DNA from: Rubrivivax sp.
GTDB taxonomy: Bacteria > Pseudomonadota > Gammaproteobacteria > Burkholderiales > Burkholderiaceae_C
Direction of reading: 5' to 3'
Length of the DNA: 52,443 nucleotides
Assembly: GCA_026785885.1 (NCBI GenBank)
Contig: JAJAZC010000034.1
Span: forward strand, 1 to 52,443
Shown here piece by piece: positions 11,101 through 21,888 of this stretch; position 1 is the stretch's first letter, and each line of letters begins with the position of its first letter. The translations under genes were made by a program, and so were the position numbers. The notes beneath the pieces are model-generated. The model did not search any database. It was not told where the DNA came from and saw only the letters and a list, made by a program, of their open reading frames with translations.

Positions 11101-12072
11101 TCAGCCAGCCACCACGCGCATCACGGCGCCGGCTTTCAGGCCTGACCCCGCACCGAACTCCGCACCGAAGTCCGCAACCGAGCCGCCGCGCTGCGGCTCG
11201 GGCTCGGCATCGAAACGCTCAAACCCGCAGTAGCACAAGAAGTGCCGGTTGGCCGCACGGCCAAACAGCGCCATGCCGAGCTTCGCAGCCAGCGCGTGCC
11301 CCATGGCCGTCACGCCGTTGCGCGACACGATGATCGGCACGCCCAACTGCGCGGCCTTCATCACCATCTCGCTGGTCAGGCGGCCGGTCGTGTAGAAAGC
11401 TTTGTCACTGCCGGCCACGCCGTGCAGGGCCATCCAGCCGGCAATGGTGTCGATGGCGTTGTGGCGGCCTACGTCCTCCACGAACATCAGCATCTCACTG
11501 GCCGCACCGCGTATGCCAAACAGCGCGCAGCCGTGCACCGAGCCGGCCTTGCGGTGAATGCTGTCCTGCTGGCGCATGGTCTCCAGCATGCGGTGCAGCG
11601 TGCTCTGGCGGATGCGCGCGGTGGCGGCATCCGGCAGCGCCACGGTATGCAACTGCTCCATCGCATCGCCGAACACGGTACCCTGCCCGCAGCCGGTGGT
11701 GACGACGCGGTGCGCCGTCTTGGCGGCGATGTCCTGCACACCGCGGTGCGTGCGCACAGCCGCAGCGCTGACGTCCCAATCGACCGTGACCGACTCGACC
11801 GCGCTCACATCGTCGATCAGGCGCTGGTTGCGCAGGTAGCCCAGCACCAGCAGCTCCGGCCGTGCGCCCAGCGTCATCAACGTGACCAGCTCGCGCTTGT
11901 CGACGAAGATCGTCAGCGGGCGCTCGGACGGAATCGCGATGTCGCGATGGGCGCCGTATTCGTCCTGCACGGTGATCTGGCGCAGCAACTCGCAGCGGGC
12001 GTCGGTCAGGCGCGGGGCGCCGGGGACCGTGGGCAGGTCCGCCAGAGTGGCGCTGACTTGCGACAGGCTCAC
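11101..12072 (-). CDS. fdhD: Formate dehydrogenase accessory sulfurtransferase FdhD
   Basis: 'VFVEDVGRHNAIDTIAGWMAL...FYTTGRLTSEMVMKAAQLGVPIIVSRNGVTAMGHALA'; GTG start overlaps upstream stop by 4 bp. Confidence 0.93.
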   Translation of the reverse strand: MSLSQVSATLADLPTVPGAPRLTDARCELLRQITVQDEYGAHRDIAIPSERPLTIFVDKRELVTLMTLGARPELLVLGYLRNQRLIDDVSAVESVTVDWDVSAAAVRTHRGVQDIAAKTAHRVVTTGCGQGTVFGDAMEQLHTVALPDAATARIRQSTLHRMLETMRQQDSIHRKAGSVHGCALFGIRGAASEMLMFVEDVGRHNAIDTIAGWMALHGVAGSDKAFYTTGRLTSEMVMKAAQLGVPIIVSRNGVTAMGHALAAKLGMALFGRAANRHFLCYCGFERFDAEPEPQRGGSVADFGAEFGAGSGLKAGAVMRVVAG

Positions 12073-12601: not shown

Positions 12602-13774
12602 TCAAGACAAGCCCGCCGACGGCAGCGGCGCCACTGCGGCGCCCGTGCCGGCCGCTGCCGTGCGCTGCGCCGGTATGCGGCCGGCGCGCACGTCCTCGTA
12701 CCACCAGGCGTGGTGTTCCTGCGCCCAGGCTTCATCGACGTACCCGCTTCGCATGGCCTGGTAGCTGCCCTTCATGCCGATGGTGCCGATGTAGATGTGG
12801 CCGATGAACATGGTCATCATCAGCACACCGGCCACAGCGTGGACCATGTGCGCAATCTGCATCTGCCCGCGGGTGTCGCCCAAGCCGGGCACCAACCCGT
12901 TGAGCACCAGGCCGGACGCTACGACCAGCAGGCCGAGGAACAACACACCGCCCCAAAACACGACTTTTTCGCCGGCGTTGAAGCGGTGCGACGGCACCTC
13001 CTGCCCGCTCAACATGCCGCCGCCGCGCTTGAGCCAATGCCAGTCGCCACGTGCTGGCAGGTTGTCGCGCACGAAGGTCAAGAAGACGACCACCAACGAC
13101 ACGGCAAACACCGGGCCGACAAAGTTGTGGATGTTCTTCAGCGCATATGCCAGCCAGCCAAACAACGTGGCGCCCAGCACCGGCAGCAGCAAGGTCTTGC
13201 CGAAGGCCAGCACCAGGCCGGAAAGGGCCAACAGCACAAAGGCCACCGCGTTGGCCCAGTGCGCCGAGCGCTCGAATGGCGTGAAGCGCTCGATGCGCCG
13301 GCCGGTGTCGGCATGGCGGCCGCCCAAAGCGCCCTTGCGCCAGTAGAAGACGGCAATGGCGCCGGCCACGATCAACAGCAGCGCACCGCCGTAAGGAATG
13401 ATCCAGCGGTTGCGCACCTGGCGCCAGGCTTCGCCGGCGCTGGCCAGGCGCGAGCCCGGGTACTGCACAAAGGGTTGAATCAACACGCCCATCTCCGCCC
13501 CGGGCAACGAGGTCGTACCGCCCTGGTCGCGCACCGCACGCCAGACCGGCGCGTTGTTGCCGGGCTGCGAACGCGCGCGCTCGGCATTGCTTTCATCGGG
13601 CCTGGGTTCGGCCGGCGCCACGAAGCCGGCAGGCGGCCCGGGTTGGGCGCCAGGCGCTGCGGTCGGTACGGCCGGCTCTGCCGTCTGCGCCATGGCAGGC
13701 GGCAGCAGCACGGAGCCGAGCACCAGCACGGCACCGGACAAGAGCTTGAACATGCGGCCGGAGATCATCGGCAT
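12602..13774 (-). CDS. Formate dehydrogenase gamma subunit (cytochrome b)
   Basis: 'RRIERFTPFERSAHWANAVAFVLLALSGLVLAFGK...NIHNFVGPVFAVSLVVVFLTFVRDNLP...' FdnI/FdoI-like. Confidence 0.93.
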   Translation of the reverse strand: MPMISGRMFKLLSGAVLVLGSVLLPPAMAQTAEPAVPTAAPGAQPGPPAGFVAPAEPRPDESNAERARSQPGNNAPVWRAVRDQGGTTSLPGAEMGVLIQPFVQYPGSRLASAGEAWRQVRNRWIIPYGGALLLIVAGAIAVFYWRKGALGGRHADTGRRIERFTPFERSAHWANAVAFVLLALSGLVLAFGKTLLLPVLGATLFGWLAYALKNIHNFVGPVFAVSLVVVFLTFVRDNLPARGDWHWLKRGGGMLSGQEVPSHRFNAGEKVVFWGGVLFLGLLVVASGLVLNGLVPGLGDTRGQMQIAHMVHAVAGVLMMTMFIGHIYIGTIGMKGSYQAMRSGYVDEAWAQEHHAWWYEDVRAGRIPAQRTAAAGTGAAVAPLPSAGLS

Positions 13775-13850: not shown

Positions 13851-14081
13851 TCAACGCGCCGACGTGCGGGCGTACTCGTTTTGCCCCTGCGAGCGCGCTT
13901 TCAGCTGCGCCTCCCAACTGGCGTTGTCGCCGGCTTTCCAGCCCGGTGCCGTGTGGGTGCCGGTGTTGCCGGCCGAAGGATCGACGTCGGCCTTGCGGGT
14001 GCCGCTGGACTGTGGCTTCTCGGCACAGGCCGCCAGCAGCAGCACAACGGCCAGCAAGACCGGCAGCCGGGCCGAGCTCAT
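13851..14081 (-). CDS. Small lipoprotein in FDH operon
   Basis: 'MSSARLPVLLAVVLLLAACAEKPQ' lipobox; start overlaps the beta subunit stop. Confidence 0.65.
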   Translation of the reverse strand: MSSARLPVLLAVVLLLAACAEKPQSSGTRKADVDPSAGNTGTHTAPGWKAGDNASWEAQLKARSQGQNEYARTSAR

Positions 14082-14734
14082 GACTTCTTGACCTCGGGCT
14101 GGCTACTGTTGCCGTTGCCGCTGCCGGTGCCTTTGCCGTTGCCCGTGATCGGCTTGCCGTAGGCCGTGCCCCAGCCCCAGACCTCGCTGCCCTTGCCGCG
14201 TGTCAGCACGCGGGTGCGGAAGATGTCGGCCACAACATCACCGTCACCGCCCAGCAGCGCCTTGGTGCTGCACATCTCGGCGCAAGCCGGCAGCTTGCCT
14301 TCGGCCAGCCGGTTGCGGCCGTACTTTTCGTTCTCGGCCGCGCTGCCGTTGGCTTCAGGCCCGCCCGCGCAGAAGGTGCACTTGTCCATCTTGCCGCGCA
14401 GGCCGAAGGCTCCGTTGCTGGGGAACTGCGGCGCGCCGAAGGGGCAGGCGTAGCTGCAGTAGCCGCAGCCGATACAGGTGTCCTTGTCATGCAGTACGAC
14501 GCCTTCGGCGGTGCGATAAAAGCAGTCCACCGGGCACACCGCCATGCAGGGCGCGTCACTGCAGTGCATGCAGGCCACGCTGATACTTTTCTCGCCAGCC
14601 ACGCCGTCGTTGAGCGTTACCACGCGACGCCGGTTGACGCCCCACGGCACCTGGTGCTCTGCCTTGCAGGCGGTGACGCAGCCGTTGCATTCGATGCAAC
14701 GCTCGGCGTCGCAGATGAATTTCATGCGTGCCAT
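14078..14734 (-). CDS. Formate dehydrogenase beta subunit, 4Fe-4S ferredoxin-type
   Basis: 'MARMKFICDAERCIECNGCVTACKAEHQVPWGVNRRRVVTLNDG...' with multiple CxxCxxC motifs. Confidence 0.95.
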   Translation of the reverse strand: MARMKFICDAERCIECNGCVTACKAEHQVPWGVNRRRVVTLNDGVAGEKSISVACMHCSDAPCMAVCPVDCFYRTAEGVVLHDKDTCIGCGYCSYACPFGAPQFPSNGAFGLRGKMDKCTFCAGGPEANGSAAENEKYGRNRLAEGKLPACAEMCSTKALLGGDGDVVADIFRTRVLTRGKGSEVWGWGTAYGKPITGNGKGTGSGNGNSSQPEVKKS

Positions 14735-14782
14735 TGATGGCTCCTGAGACGTGAACTCGAGCCGCCCCGAGGCAGGCAACGG

Positions 14783-14825: not shown

Positions 14826-17789
14826 TCATGCCGCCCGCTCGACCTGGCAAACGGTGGTCTTGGTTTCTTGCATCATGGTCACGCTGTCGTAGCCGTAGGT
14901 AGTGGCCGTGTTGACCGCCTCACCGCGAACGATCGGCGCCGCGCCCTTCGGGTAGTGCGCCAACATGTCCACGCCTTGCCAGTGGCCGGCAAAGTGGTAG
15001 GGCATGAAGGCGGTGTCGCTGCCCACGCGCTCCGTCACTTGTGCCTTGACCTTGATGCGCGCCCCGGTGGGCGTGCTGACCCAGACGTCCTCGCCGTTGC
15101 GGATGCCGCGGTCGTTGGCTGCTTTCGGGTTGATCTCGATGAACATGTGCTGCTGCAGCTCGGCGAGATAGCGGTTAGAGCGTGTCTCGTCGCCGCCGCC
15201 TTCGTACTCCACCAGGCGGCCGCTGGTCAGGATGATCGGAAACTTCTGGCCGATGTCCTTGTTCTTCTCCTGCACCGACTTGAACAGCGTAGGCAGCCGC
15301 CAGAACGCCTTGCGGTCGTCATGGGTCGGGTACTTCGCCACCAGCTCTGGGCGCGTCGAATACAAAGGCTCGCGGTGCTGCGGAATCGGATCGGGGAAGT
15401 TCCACACTACCGCGCGCGCCCGTGCGTTGCCGAAGGGATGGCAGCCGTGGTTTTTCATGGCCACGCGGATGATGCCGCCGGAGCTGTCGGTCTTCCAGTT
15501 CTTGCCTTCGGCCTTCTTCTGCTCGTCTTCGGACAACTCGCCCCACCAGCCCAACTTCTTCAGCAGCAGGTGATCGAATTCCGGATAGCCGGTGGTCAGG
15601 TCGCAGCCCTTGGAATGTGAGCCGTCGGCCGCCAACAGCGACTGGCCGTCACGCTCGACGCCGAAGTTGGCGCGGAAGTTACCGCCGCCATCCATCACGT
15701 GCTTGGAGGTGTCGTACAGGATGTGCGTGCCCGGGTGCTTCATCTCGGGCGTTCCCCAACAGGGCCAGGGCAGGCCGAAGTAATCGCCGTCCAGCTGGTA
15801 GCCGGTCTCCTTGTCGATGCCACCTTTGGCACGCAGCGTGTTGACGTCGAAGACGTGCATGTTGCGCATGTGGGCCTTCAGCCGCTCCGGGCTCTGCCCG
15901 GTGTAGCCGATGGTCCAGACCGAGCGGTTGATTTCGCGCAGGATGTCCTCCGGCAAGGGCTCGTCCAGACCCTTGACCTTCTGCATCTTGTAGTTCTTGA
16001 CCAGCTGCTCGCCGAAGCCCAGCTTTTGCGCGAGCTGGTACATGATCATGTGGTCACTGCGCGATTCGAACAGCGGGTCGATGACCTTCTCGCGCCACTG
16101 CAACGACCGGTTCGATGCGGTGACAGAGCCACTGGTCTCGAACTGCGTACATGCCGGCAGCAGGTACACGGCGCGCTTCGGGTTCAGGTCTTCGGCCATG
16201 CCCGGCATCGCGGCCATGGCTGCGGTGGCCGATGGGTACGGGTCCACCACCACCAGCAGATCCAGCTTGTCCATGGCCTTCTTGAGGTCGAGGCCACGGG
16301 TCTGCGAATTGGGTGCGTGGCCCCAATAGAACATGCCGCGCAGGTTGCTGTCCTGGTCGATGAGCTCGTTCTTCTCGAGCACGGCATCGAACCACCGCGA
16401 GACAGTCAGGCCCGCCTTGCTCATCATGCCCGGCGCGTACTGCTTCTTCATCCACTCGAAGTCCACGCCCCAGGCAGCGGCAAAGTGCTTGAACGATCCC
16501 TCGGAAAGGCCGTAGTAGCCAGGCAACGAGTCCGGGTTGGAGCCGACGTCGGTGATGCCCTGCACGTTGTCGTGGCCGCGGAAGATGTTGGCGCCACCGC
16601 CACTCTTGCCCACGTTGCCCAGCGCTAGCTGCAGCAGGCAGGAGGCCCGCACCATGGCGTTGCCGATGGTGTGCTGGGTGTGACCCACGCACCAGACCAG
16701 CGTGCTGGGCCGGTTCTCGGCCATCGTCTTGGCAACCTGCAAGCACTCGGCCTCGGTGACGCCCGAGGCCTCGAGCACCTTGTCGGGCGTCCACTTGGCG
16801 AGCACCTCTTCGCGCACCTTGTCCATCGCCCAGACGCGGTCGGCGATGTACTGCTTGTCTTCCCAGCCGTTGTTGAAGACGTGGTACAGCACGCCATAAA
16901 GAAACGGAATGTCGGCCCCCGAGCGCATGCGCACGTACTGGTCGGCCTTGGCTGCCGTGCGGGTGAACCGGGGGTCCACCACGATCATCTTGCAGCCCTT
17001 CTCCTTGGCATGCAGCATGTGCAGCATCGACACCGGATGTGCTTCGGCAGCATTGCTGCCGATGTACATCGCAGCCTTGCTGTTCTGCATGTCGTTGTAC
17101 GAGTTGGTCATCGCACCGTAGCCCCACGTATTCGCCACACCGGCGACTGTTGTGGAGTGGCATATTCGTGCCTGGTGATCGCAGTTGTTACTGCCCCAGA
17201 AGGACATCCACTTTCTGAGCAGGTACCCCTGCTCGTTGTTGCTCTTGCACGAGCCGACGATGAAGACGCTGTCGGGGCCGCTTTCGCGCTTCAGCTCCAG
17301 CATGCGGGCGCTGATCTCGTCCAGCGCCACATCCCAAGTGATGCGCTCGTACTTGCCGTTCACGAGCTTCATCGGGTACTTCAGCCGGAACTCGCCGTGC
17401 GCGTTGTCGCGCACCGCCGCACCTTTGGCGCAATGCGCACCCAGGTTGATGGGCGAGTCGAACACCGGCTCCTGGCGCACCCAGATGCCGTTTTCGACCA
17501 CGGCGTCGATGGCACAACCCACCGAGCAGTGGGTGCAGACCGTGCGCTTGACTTCGACCTTGGCACCTCCCGCAATGGCTGCGCCCGCCTTCTCGACAGC
17601 GTCGGCCTTGCGTACCAGCGTGAGTTGCGATGCGGCGATGCCCACCCCGAGGCCCAGCCCGGAGCGGCGCAAAAACTTGCGCCGGTCCATCGTGGGCAGC
17701 GCGCGGGCCAAGCCCCGCGCCAGACCGTCGACCAGCGTCCGCGTCGGCGGTGCCGCCCCGTGCGCGGGCGACGTGCGTGTCAAGAGCAT
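14826..17789 (-). CDS. Formate dehydrogenase alpha subunit (Mo/W-bisPGD), candidate selenoprotein with Sec encoded by TGC at 17160-17162
   Basis: TAT signal (MDRRKFLRRSGLGLGVG), CTHCSVGC 4Fe-4S site, 'DHQARICHSTTVAGVANTWGYGAMTN' catalytic motif where E. coli FdnG has U. Confidence 0.96.
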   Translation of the reverse strand: MLLTRTSPAHGAAPPTRTLVDGLARGLARALPTMDRRKFLRRSGLGLGVGIAASQLTLVRKADAVEKAGAAIAGGAKVEVKRTVCTHCSVGCAIDAVVENGIWVRQEPVFDSPINLGAHCAKGAAVRDNAHGEFRLKYPMKLVNGKYERITWDVALDEISARMLELKRESGPDSVFIVGSCKSNNEQGYLLRKWMSFWGSNNCDHQARICHSTTVAGVANTWGYGAMTNSYNDMQNSKAAMYIGSNAAEAHPVSMLHMLHAKEKGCKMIVVDPRFTRTAAKADQYVRMRSGADIPFLYGVLYHVFNNGWEDKQYIADRVWAMDKVREEVLAKWTPDKVLEASGVTEAECLQVAKTMAENRPSTLVWCVGHTQHTIGNAMVRASCLLQLALGNVGKSGGGANIFRGHDNVQGITDVGSNPDSLPGYYGLSEGSFKHFAAAWGVDFEWMKKQYAPGMMSKAGLTVSRWFDAVLEKNELIDQDSNLRGMFYWGHAPNSQTRGLDLKKAMDKLDLLVVVDPYPSATAAMAAMPGMAEDLNPKRAVYLLPACTQFETSGSVTASNRSLQWREKVIDPLFESRSDHMIMYQLAQKLGFGEQLVKNYKMQKVKGLDEPLPEDILREINRSVWTIGYTGQSPERLKAHMRNMHVFDVNTLRAKGGIDKETGYQLDGDYFGLPWPCWGTPEMKHPGTHILYDTSKHVMDGGGNFRANFGVERDGQSLLAADGSHSKGCDLTTGYPEFDHLLLKKLGWWGELSEDEQKKAEGKNWKTDSSGGIIRVAMKNHGCHPFGNARARAVVWNFPDPIPQHREPLYSTRPELVAKYPTHDDRKAFWRLPTLFKSVQEKNKDIGQKFPIILTSGRLVEYEGGGDETRSNRYLAELQQHMFIEINPKAANDRGIRNGEDVWVSTPTGARIKVKAQVTERVGSDTAFMPYHFAGHWQGVDMLAHYPKGAAPIVRGEAVNTATTYGYDSVTMMQETKTTVCQVERAA
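17121..17159 (-). promoter_or_regulatory. Candidate bSECIS-like hairpin immediately 3' of the catalytic TGC codon
   Basis: On minus strand: TGC CAC TCC ACA ACA GTC GCC GGT GTG GCG AAT ACG TGG GGC. Upper stem UCGCC/GGCGA (5 bp), GGUGU loop, lower stem CUCCAC/GUGGGG (6 bp incl. one U-G); 18 nt from codon to apical loop. Confidence 0.55.
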
Positions 17790-17849: not shown

Positions 17850-18068
17850 TCAGATCCGCGCTGTGGCGTAGTACTGTTTGACGTGCTCGGTGAGTTGGTA
17901 GCCGTCTGCAGTTTCCGCGGCCTCGACGGCCGGGGCCGGGGCCGGCTGGATCTTCGAGCCAGCCGCAACGGCTGCGATGGCACCGACCGCCCCGGCGACT
18001 CCGGCGCCCATGAAGACCGTCCGCCGGCTCAGCGCCGGGGCGATAGAAGAGCTAGAGTCTTTGGGCAT
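17850..18068 (-). CDS. Formate dehydrogenase region TAT-target small protein
   Basis: 'LSRRTVFMGAGVAGAVGAIAAVAAG...YQLTEHVKQYYATARI', first gene of FDH operon. Confidence 0.85.
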   Translation of the reverse strand: MPKDSSSSIAPALSRRTVFMGAGVAGAVGAIAAVAAGSKIQPAPAPAVEAAETADGYQLTEHVKQYYATARI

Positions 18069-18380: not shown

Positions 18381-20312
18381 TTGATCATCGGCACTGCAGG
18401 TCACATCGACCACGGCAAGACCTCGCTCGTCAAGGCGCTGACTGGCATCGACGCTGACCGGCTGAAAGAGGAAAAAGAGCGCGGCATCACCATCGACCTC
18501 GGCTTCGCTTATCACGCGCTGCCTGACGGTGAGGTGCTGGGCTTTGTCGATGTGCCCGGCCACGAGAAGCTGGTGCGCAACATGCTGGCCGGAGCCACCG
18601 GCATAGACCACGTGATGCTGGTCATCGCCGCCGACGACGGCCCGATGCCGCAGACGCGTGAGCACCTGGCCATCCTGCACCTGTTGGGTCTGTCGCAGGG
18701 CGTGGTGGCCTTGAGCAAGTGCGACCTCGTCGGGCCAGAGCGGCTGGCTGCGGCCCTGGCCGAGGTGCAGCAGCTGCTGGCCGGCAGTGTGCTGGCCGCT
18801 GCACCCGTGCTGCCCGTGTCATCGCTCACCGGCCGGGGTATCGCTGAACTAGCAGCGCACTTGGCACGTTCGCGGGTGCCGCTGCCAGACGGTGCGGCAA
18901 GCGGCCAATTTCGGCTGGCCATCGACCGCAGCTTCACGCTGGCCGGCATCGGCACGGTGGTTACGGGTACCGCAGTGGCCGGGCAGGTTGCAGTGGGCGA
19001 CAAGTTGATGCTTTCGCCGAGCGGGCAGGCCGTGCGCGTGCGCGGCCTGCACGCTCAGAACCACCGCGCCGACAGCGGCCACGCCGGCCAACGCCTGGCG
19101 TTGAACCTGGCGGGCGTCGAGAAAAACGGGGTCCGCCGCGGCGACTGGCTGCTGGCCGAGGCCCTGCACGCGCCGACCCAGCGCATAGCCGCGCGGCTGC
19201 AGGTGCTGGCCAGCGAGCCGCGGCCGCTGGCACACCGCACGCCGCTGCACCTGCACCTGGGTGCACAAGACGCCGGCGCGCGCGTCGTGCTGCTGGAAGG
19301 CAAGGCGATCGAGCCCGGCGCCAGCGCCTGGGTCGAGCTGGAGCTCGAACGCCCGATCGGCGCGCTGCACGGCGACCGTTTCATCGTGCGCGACCAGTCG
19401 GCTTTGCGCACCGTGGGCGGCGGCAGCGTCACCGATGCCTTTGCACCCGACAGCCGGCGCCACCGCACGGAGCGCGTGGCATCGCTGATGGCGCTCGACC
19501 AACCCACGCCCGCCGCCGCACTGGCCGCCGCAATGGCGCTGGAGCCCGCCGGCGGCATCGACGCCCAAGCCTTTTGTACGCAGTGGAACCTTACCGAAGG
19601 CCAGCGCCAGGCGCTGCTGGCCGCGCTGCCGCACCGCGTGGTGCAGGGCGCAGGGGACGGCGGCCACGCGCTGCTGTTTGCGCCGGCACAGATGGATCGC
19701 TACAGCGCCGCGCTGGCCGCACACCTCGGCGCCTGGCACCGCAAGCAACCCGACAGCCCGGGGCTGACACAAGAGCAGCTGCAGCGCGCCGTCCGCGACA
19801 GGCCCGCCAACGCGGTGTTTGCGCTGCTGCTGCGCCAACTCGTGAAGGACGGCGTGCTCAAGCGCAGCGGTGCCCAGCACGCGCTGCCCGGGCACGACCC
19901 TTCACTGCAGGGCGTGGACAAACAGATCTGGGAACGTCTGAAGCCCTGGCTGGACGAAGGTGGCATTCACCCGCCGCGGTTCAGCGACCTGTTGCTGCGC
20001 GACCGCAGCCTGCGCAAGGACCAGTTGCTGCGCGTGCTGGAGCGGCTGCAGCGCATGGGCGCGGTGCACGCGGTCGGGGCCGAGTACTTCATCCTAACGC
20101 CGCACCTGCTGGACCTGGCGACCCGGGCCTACCTGCTGACCGAGGCCGACGCCAACAGGCGGCTCAACGTCAAGGAGCTGCGCGAGAGCACCGGCATCAG
20201 CCGGCACCTGTCGGTGCCGCTGGTAGAGTATTTCGATCAGATCGGGCTGACCAAGCGTGATGAGGTCGGGCGCCATTTCAGGCGCGACCCGCGCAAGGCG
20301 CTTGTCACCTGA
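18381..20312 (+). CDS. selB: Selenocysteine-specific elongation factor SelB
   Basis: '[43 protein letters not shown]' and C-terminal winged-helix region; TTG start. Confidence 0.97.
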
Positions 20313-20328
20313 TGCACCTGTTTTTCTT

Positions 20329-20425
20329 GGAGGAGGATCGACTCCCGGTGGGGCGTCCGGTCTGCAAAACCGGGTGGGGCTGCCCTGCGGTCCCAGGTGG
20401 GTTCGACTCCCACCCCCCTCCGCCA
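20329..20425 (+). tRNA. selC: tRNA-Sec with non-canonical GCA anticodon (20364-20366), CCA encoded
   Basis: Between selB and selA; 97 nt; 8-bp acceptor (one A-C mismatch), 6-position D stem (one A-G mismatch), anticodon arm CCGGT-CTGCAAA-ACCGG, long variable arm GGGGCTGC-CCT-GCGGTCCC, T arm GTGGG-TTCGACT-CCCAC, G discriminator, CCA; lines up with E. coli selC apart from U34 to G34 at the anticodon. Confidence 0.9.
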
Positions 20426-20457
20426 TCGGTCCGTTCAACAAAGTGACCCGGGCCACG

Positions 20458-21888
20458 ATGACCACTGCCAGCCTGCGCCCGCCGGCTACGGACAAGCTGC
20501 TGGACAGTGACGCGATGCGTGCACTGGCCTTGCAGCACGGCCGCGTCGCGCTGTTGGCGGTGGCGCGCGAAGCGCTCGGGCACTGGCGCGCGCAGACGCC
20601 GCAACAGGCCTTCGAGCCGGCACCGTTCGAGGCCCGCTGCAGCGCCGCGTTGCAGCAGCAGGCAGCACCCGCTTTGCGGCCGGTGTTCAACTTGACCGGC
20701 ACCGTGTTGCACACCAATCTGGGCCGCGCGGTGATGGCGCCCGAGGCCATAGCGGCCGTCGTGGCCGTGATGCGGGGCGCGTCCAACCTCGAGTACGACC
20801 TGGCCGCTGGCGGGCGCGGCGACCGCGACGACCATGTCGACGGGCTACTGAAGGAACTCACCGGCGCCGAGGCCGCCACCGCAGTCAACAACAACGCCGC
20901 GGCGGTGCTGCTGGTGCTGGCAGCCCTGGCCGATCGCAAAGAAGTGCCGGTGTCGCGCGGCGAGCTGATCGAGATCGGCGGCGCCTTTCGCATCCCCGAC
21001 ATCATGCGCAGGGCCGGCGCCAAGCTGGTCGAGGTCGGCACCACCAACCGCACCCATCTGCGCGACTTCGAAGAAGCCATCGGCCCGCGCACGGCGCTGG
21101 TGATGAAGGTGCATGCCAGCAACTACGCCATCCAGGGCTTCACGGCCAGCGTGCCGGTGACTGAGCTGGCCGCGTTGTGCAAGGCCCGTGGCCTGCCGTT
21201 TGTCGAAGACCTGGGCAGCGGCACGCTGGTGGACCTGACGCGCTGGGGCCTGCCGGCCGAACCGACGCCAGCGCAGTCCATCTCAGCCGGCGCCAACGTC
21301 GTCACCTTCAGCGCCGACAAGCTGCTGGGCGGCCCGCAGGCCGGCCTCATCGTCGGCGACAAGCTGTTGATTCAGAGGATCAAGAAGCACCCGCTGAAGC
21401 GCGCGCTGCGGCTGGACAAGATGACGCTGGCAGCGTTGGAAGCCACGCTCAAGCTCTACCGCGACCCCGACCGCCTAGCGCAGCGCCTGCCCACGCTGCG
21501 CTTGTTGACGCGTACTGAAGCCGACATCCGGCTGCAGACCGAACGCCTGGCACCGGCGCTGGCGCAGGCGCTCGGCACGCGCTGCCAGGTGCAGGTGCTG
21601 GCCTGCCGCAGCCAAATCGGCAGCGGCTCGCTGCCGGTGGACCGGCTGCCCAGTGCTTGCCTGGCCATCGGTGCTGCAGCTGGCGGCAACGGTGTCGTCA
21701 AGGCTGGCAGCAAGCGCGCCGGCAGCCTGCCCGATCGCTTGGCCGAAGCGATGCGCGCGCTGCCGCTGCCGGTCATCGGCCGTATCGAAGACGGCCAGCT
21801 GCGGTTGGACCTGCGCTGCCTCGACAGCGCCGACGCCGAAGCGGCTTTCGCCGAGCAGCTGCCGCTGCTGGCGCAAGCAACGCTTTAA
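20458..21888 (+). CDS. selA: L-seryl-tRNA(Sec) selenium transferase
   Basis: '[19 protein letters not shown]...[14 protein letters not shown]...[15 protein letters not shown]'. Confidence 0.97.

Follow-up and report, generated by a model that had tools for sequence, protein, structure and literature searches.

A formate dehydrogenase with a predicted UGC selenocysteine codon and a linked tRNA-Sec with a GCA anticodon in Rubrivivax-like bacteria

The window analysed here, a stretch of 52,443 nucleotides (contig JAJAZC010000034.1) from Rubrivivax sp., contains a gene for a formate dehydrogenase (FDH) alpha subunit that, judging from comparative sequence analysis, is very probably a selenoprotein whose selenocysteine (Sec) codon is UGC, decoded by means of a tRNA-Sec with a GCA anticodon, SelB and a SECIS element; the system would have arisen once, from a Cys-containing FDH3, in a Rubrivivax-like lineage. 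The original prediction was that UGC stands for Cys at the Fe-S ligands and for Sec at the active site within one mRNA, and comparative genomics strongly supports this dual reading through the combination of tRNA-Sec(GCA), SelB and SECIS.

The FDH3-type alpha subunit gene occupies positions 14826-17789 of the minus strand and encodes a 987-aa protein with a TAT leader; in-frame TGA codons are absent. The predicted Sec codon is the TGC of residue 210 (17160-17162, minus strand), located in the context NNCDHQARI-C-HSTTVAG. In chain 9t1s, an F420 formate dehydrogenase, the residue aligned with residue 210 is the non-standard X (DHCARL-X-HSATV), and in FdhA 9vap it is a Cys; on this alignment, residue 210 is the active-site Sec/Cys position of the family. 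Ordinary cysteines of the same protein are encoded by TGC as well. The Fe-S motif VCTHCSVGC (17513-17540, minus strand) lies in the stretch gtc tgc acc cac tgc tcg gtg ggt tgt gcc (VCTHCSVGCA), with TGC at residues 85 and 88 and TGT at residue 92, while Cys120, the fourth Fe-S ligand, is encoded by the TGC at 17430-17432 (minus strand) within ggt gcg cat tgc gcc aaa ggt (GAHCAKG). The codons earlier read for these two motifs (tgc, tgc and tgt for CTHCSVGC, and tgc for GAHCAKG) are thus the ones present. Altogether, the open reading frame contains 16 Cys codons, 13 of them TGC (residues 85, 88, 120, 181, 203, 210, 266, 349, 367, 384, 729, 783 and 981) and three TGT (residues 92, 547 and 677). 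A high number of TGC codons in a GC-rich gene is expected by chance; chance does not explain the lack of variation in the DNA surrounding codon 210, nor the GCA anticodon of the neighbouring tRNA-Sec, both described below.

Downstream of the alpha gene, in the same operon and on the minus strand, are genes of the FDH3 beta subunit (4Fe-4S; 14078-14779; NF038355), the cytochrome b gamma subunit (12602-13774; TIGR01583) and the FdhD sulfurtransferase (11101-11985). A minus-strand ORF at 17850-18068 codes for the small protein with a twin-arginine leader that FDH3 operons typically contain. Transcribed divergently from the operon, on the plus strand, are selB, coding for the Sec-specific elongation factor with winged-helix domains (18381-20312; TIGR00475), a tRNA-Sec gene (20329-20425) and selA, coding for L-seryl-tRNA(Sec) selenium transferase (20458-21888; TIGR00474), so that the Sec-decoding trio selA, selB and selC is complete at 18381-21888. 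The tRNA, which has a long variable arm, matches the Rfam model RF01852 over its full length with 65.9 bits (the cut-off being 47 bits) and is the sole match above the cut-off in the window genome. Its anticodon loop, CUGCAAA, carries the anticodon GCA (20364-20366) and not UCA, and would read UGC and, by wobble, UGU. The tRNA is therefore a decoding variant, and because of the same anticodon ARAGORN labels it as tRNA-Cys. The 3′ end, CCTCC-G-CCA, has the discriminator G73 (Ser identity) and not U73; a five-pair T stem (GTGGG/CCCAC) is possible, and the tRNA lacks the combination of U73 and an 8/4 body with a bulged A that characterizes selC* tRNAs.

Two types of tRNA-Sec gene occur in related genomes: most have the UCA anticodon, and GCA is found in 22 genomes. 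These 22 include the named genomes of Rubrivivax sp. (among them A210) and Piscinibacter aquaticus (strain KACC 15278), as well as metagenome-assembled genomes (MAGs) deposited as Azohydromonas, Leptothrix or Aquabacterium or under broader names. Wherever contigs of GCA genomes span the region, selB-selC is divergent to the FDH3 operon. A search of 11 GCA genomes revealed no TGA-containing FDH among the matches listed, though weak matches may be missed; TGA-type FDH is present in at least 22 of 27 UCA genomes. Of the 11 GCA genomes searched for selD, eight have a match above the cut-off; the genome of the window, with a completeness of 89.9%, gave none. Nine genomes were tested for ordinary tRNA-Cys(GCA) genes, and six have them (G001, G006, G037, G050, G108 and G116); the search pattern detected none in G002 and G046, nor was one found in the incomplete window genome.

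All 22 genomes with tRNA-Sec(GCA) have an FDH3 gene that carries a conserved nucleotide element. In the window, the conserved block covers codons 205-230 around the Sec codon (17100-17177, minus strand). From CGA-ATA-TGC through GTCGCCGGTGTGGCGAATACG, the DNA of the GCA genomes hardly varies even at synonymous sites and can be written as CGA ATA TGC CAC TCC ACN ACW GTC GCC GGT GTG GCG AAT ACG TGG GGN TAC, with variation only at N and W. All 22 distinct regions that have the SECIS core contain CGA-ATA-TGC, and none of the 49 distinct FDH3 regions lacking the core does, counts that refer to related sequences and not to independent events. In these 49 regions the encoded peptide is nearly identical, synonymous codons vary freely and CGA ATA is absent. 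Codons 228-241 (alignment numbering) of the SECIS clade are the lowest of 909 synonymous-diversity windows (0.063 vs. a gene mean of 0.304), while the same codons vary freely in Cys FDH3 genes. One genome, G006, is the only one with both FDH3 copies; the element is present in the sel-linked copy (L118, contig C80) only, and the second copy (L048, contig C64) serves as an internal control. Three genomes contain the element but yielded no tRNA-Sec; in these, FDH lies on a short contig of 4-5 kb. Parts of the SECIS sequence (GGTGTGGCG) are also seen in five Cys FDH3 genes (L090, L097, L100, L103 and L281), which have neither CGA-ATA nor the AAT codon.

Directly 3′ of the Sec codon, the block can be folded into a hairpin, CUCCAC..UCGCC-GGUGU-GGCGA..GUGGGG (17122-17157, minus strand), with a lower stem CUCCAC/GUGGGG, an upper stem UCGCC/GGCGA and a loop GGUGU. 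U17, G23 and U24, counting from the U of the codon, are present in the same register as in the SECIS of E. coli fdhF, and in a related genome the UGA-type fdnG shows GGU at the corresponding place. On this folding, the hairpin is a predicted SelB-type SECIS. The RNAalifold consensus gave -22.5 against -7.1 kcal/mol, with an apical closing pair probability of 0.93 against 0.19. The alignment consensus fold also yields a closing stem and a predicted small hairpin, GGCA-CGAAUA-UGCC (17159-17172, minus strand), which holds CGA ATA together with the Sec codon. The uniformity of the sequences leaves no covariation by which the SECIS hairpin or the small hairpin could be tested. When 59 nt were folded as a single sequence, a long hairpin spanning the codon was obtained; in wider context the SECIS fold mostly replaced it, and the 59-nt fold on its own was no better than shuffles (z -0.5). 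The rare codons CGA and ATA do not occur elsewhere in the alpha gene of the window, counted from its ATG. The hexamer CGAATA, invariant in the clade, flanks the Sec codon on both sides, as CGA ATA (17163-17168) and within GCG AAT ACG (near 17127-17135).

Could the enzyme instead be an ordinary Cys formate dehydrogenase, with the GCA tRNA being a decaying tRNA-Sec or an unrelated minor tRNA-Cys? The Cys-only state of the wider FDH3 family and the ARAGORN label agree with such a view. However, the same anticodon recurs in 22 genomes, in which SelB and SelA are open over their full length at roughly 60-79% identity, and strict synonymous conservation is seen only where tRNA-Sec(GCA) is present; we consider this explanation very unlikely. 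Another possibility is that the conserved block acts as a regulatory RNA or a pause site and has nothing to do with Sec, the rare CGA-ATA codons slowing the ribosome to allow folding or cofactor loading. It would account for conservation that reaches upstream of the codon, beyond what a minimal SECIS needs, but it leaves unexplained both the strict co-occurrence with tRNA-Sec(GCA) and the E. coli-like register of U17, G23 and U24; we rate it as slightly less probable still.

The alternative to which we give the least credence is that the Sec-like tRNA is charged with Cys, as selC* tRNA-Cys is, and that SelB inserts Cys at codon 210. Such tRNAs exist (Mukai 2017, in PMC7609411), and the tRNA of the window shares with them the GCA anticodon, the Sec-like body and a position next to selB. 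But selC* tRNAs, according to that source, have U73 and the 8/4 body with a bulged A, whereas the tRNA of the window has G73 and adjoins selA, and its predicted amino acid is accordingly Sec and not Cys.

The phylogeny bears on how a UGC Sec codon may have come about. In the protein tree, SECIS-bearing FDH3 genes form one clade (SH-aLRT 97), and all FDH3 relatives around it, outgroups included, have Cys codons. The SelBs of the GCA systems likewise form one clade (support 100). In a class-wide search covering 33 genomes with FDH3, no TGA form of FDH3 was seen among the matches listed, and the 19 non-window FDH3 sites that were read have TGC or TGT and no element. Since the SECIS genes form one clade within a Cys family and the GCA SelBs form one clade, the most likely history is that a Cys codon already in place acquired the Sec meaning, with codon and peptide unchanged and only synonymous substitutions and a change of the tRNA anticodon taking place; this direction of gain is read from FDH3 genes of one class, and Sec may have been present in a more distant ancestor.

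Taken together, the data suggest the following scheme. SerRS would serylate tRNA-Sec(GCA), SelA would convert the seryl-tRNA to Sec-tRNA-Sec, and SelB would carry the latter and dock on the SECIS hairpin that directly follows codon 210. Because SelB docks on the adjoining SECIS, Sec would be delivered to UGC 210 only, and the remaining UGC codons, which have no hairpin, would receive Cys from EF-Tu and ordinary tRNA-Cys. The scheme would have had a single origin, when the anticodon of tRNA-Sec changed from UCA to GCA in a Rubrivivax-like lineage whose FDH3 already had Cys (UGC), and the SECIS would have been built through synonymous substitutions. We regard it as likely that UGC was kept and the anticodon moved to the codon, that the SECIS and a second, 5′ element (the CGA-AUA-UGC hairpin) evolved by synonymous changes throughout, and that Cys serves as a fallback when selenium is short. 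Competition at codon 210, as supposed in the original prediction, is to be expected because ordinary tRNA-Cys(GCA) genes are present in most of the genomes tested, and since Cys-tRNA-Cys can also read this codon, some mixture of Cys and Sec enzyme would result. A mixed or Se-tunable pool is plausible because the ancestral enzyme contained Cys and missed decoding would still yield a full-length protein.

Recoding of Cys codons by tRNA-Sec is already known. According to later summaries (PMC10778597, PMC8124441 and PMC11415595) of the work on Aeromonas salmonicida (Mukai et al. 2016, Angew Chem 55:5337), anticodon variants of tRNA-Sec convert Cys codons to Sec; the recoded codon is given as UGU in the first of these, as UGC/UGU in the second and as UGC, with a GCA anticodon, in the third. 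As in A. salmonicida thus summarized, a tRNA-Sec with a Cys anticodon would here insert Sec at a Cys codon marked by a SECIS, and the GCA anticodon together with TGC at the Sec site, the mark of such recoding, was found in 22 genomes. The present system belongs to another lineage than that of Aeromonas, and its origin was most likely independent. The Rubrivivax-like group is thus a new lineage for this type of recoding, although the 2016 paper may already list tRNAs of the group; our literature search found no paper that names Rubrivivax with tRNA-Sec. What looks new is the direction of evolution together with the 5′ element.

With UGA-Sec formate dehydrogenases (E. coli fdnG and fdhF, and the Burkholderiales fdnG located beside tRNA-Sec(UCA)) the system shares SelA, SelB, a SECIS 3′ of the codon and an FDH client. 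It differs in that the codon is UGC and the client is FDH3 and not FdnG, and in that a missed Sec would give Cys and not truncation. The FDH3 (FdhA) Cys enzymes belong to the same family and have the same active-site peptide, but lack the SECIS, the CGA-ATA codons and linked sel genes, all of which are present in the window.

There are thus 22 genomes in which one sense codon appears to hold two meanings in one mRNA, with natural controls provided by Cys genes of the same family and, in one genome, by a Cys paralogue that has no element. The case suggests a route to selenocysteine that needs neither a stop codon nor a change of the active-site peptide, and the coexistence of Sec and Cys forms becomes testable. 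Since ARAGORN calls the tRNA a tRNA-Cys and the enzyme looks like an ordinary Cys protein, standard annotation likely misses the system.

A search with the SECIS pattern (up to three mismatches), capable of detecting only similar SECIS, gave one match per genome, the FDH, and no second UGC-Sec gene. In a plasmid search, the matches listed comprised only FDH relatives and a selA, and none spanned most of the locus. On contig C264 of G021, a UCA tRNA-Sec with a GCA-like anticodon arm (L115) is located between selA and a TGA-type fdnG; the contig gave no selB match. Two MAGs have both UCA and GCA tRNA-Sec, each with its own selB (L121 on C10 and L041 on C207 of G046; L190 and L201 of G116). No selenoprotein gene was seen beside the UCA copy of G046 among the ORFs tested. 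In these two MAGs, either two Sec codes operate side by side within a cell or the assemblies are contaminated.
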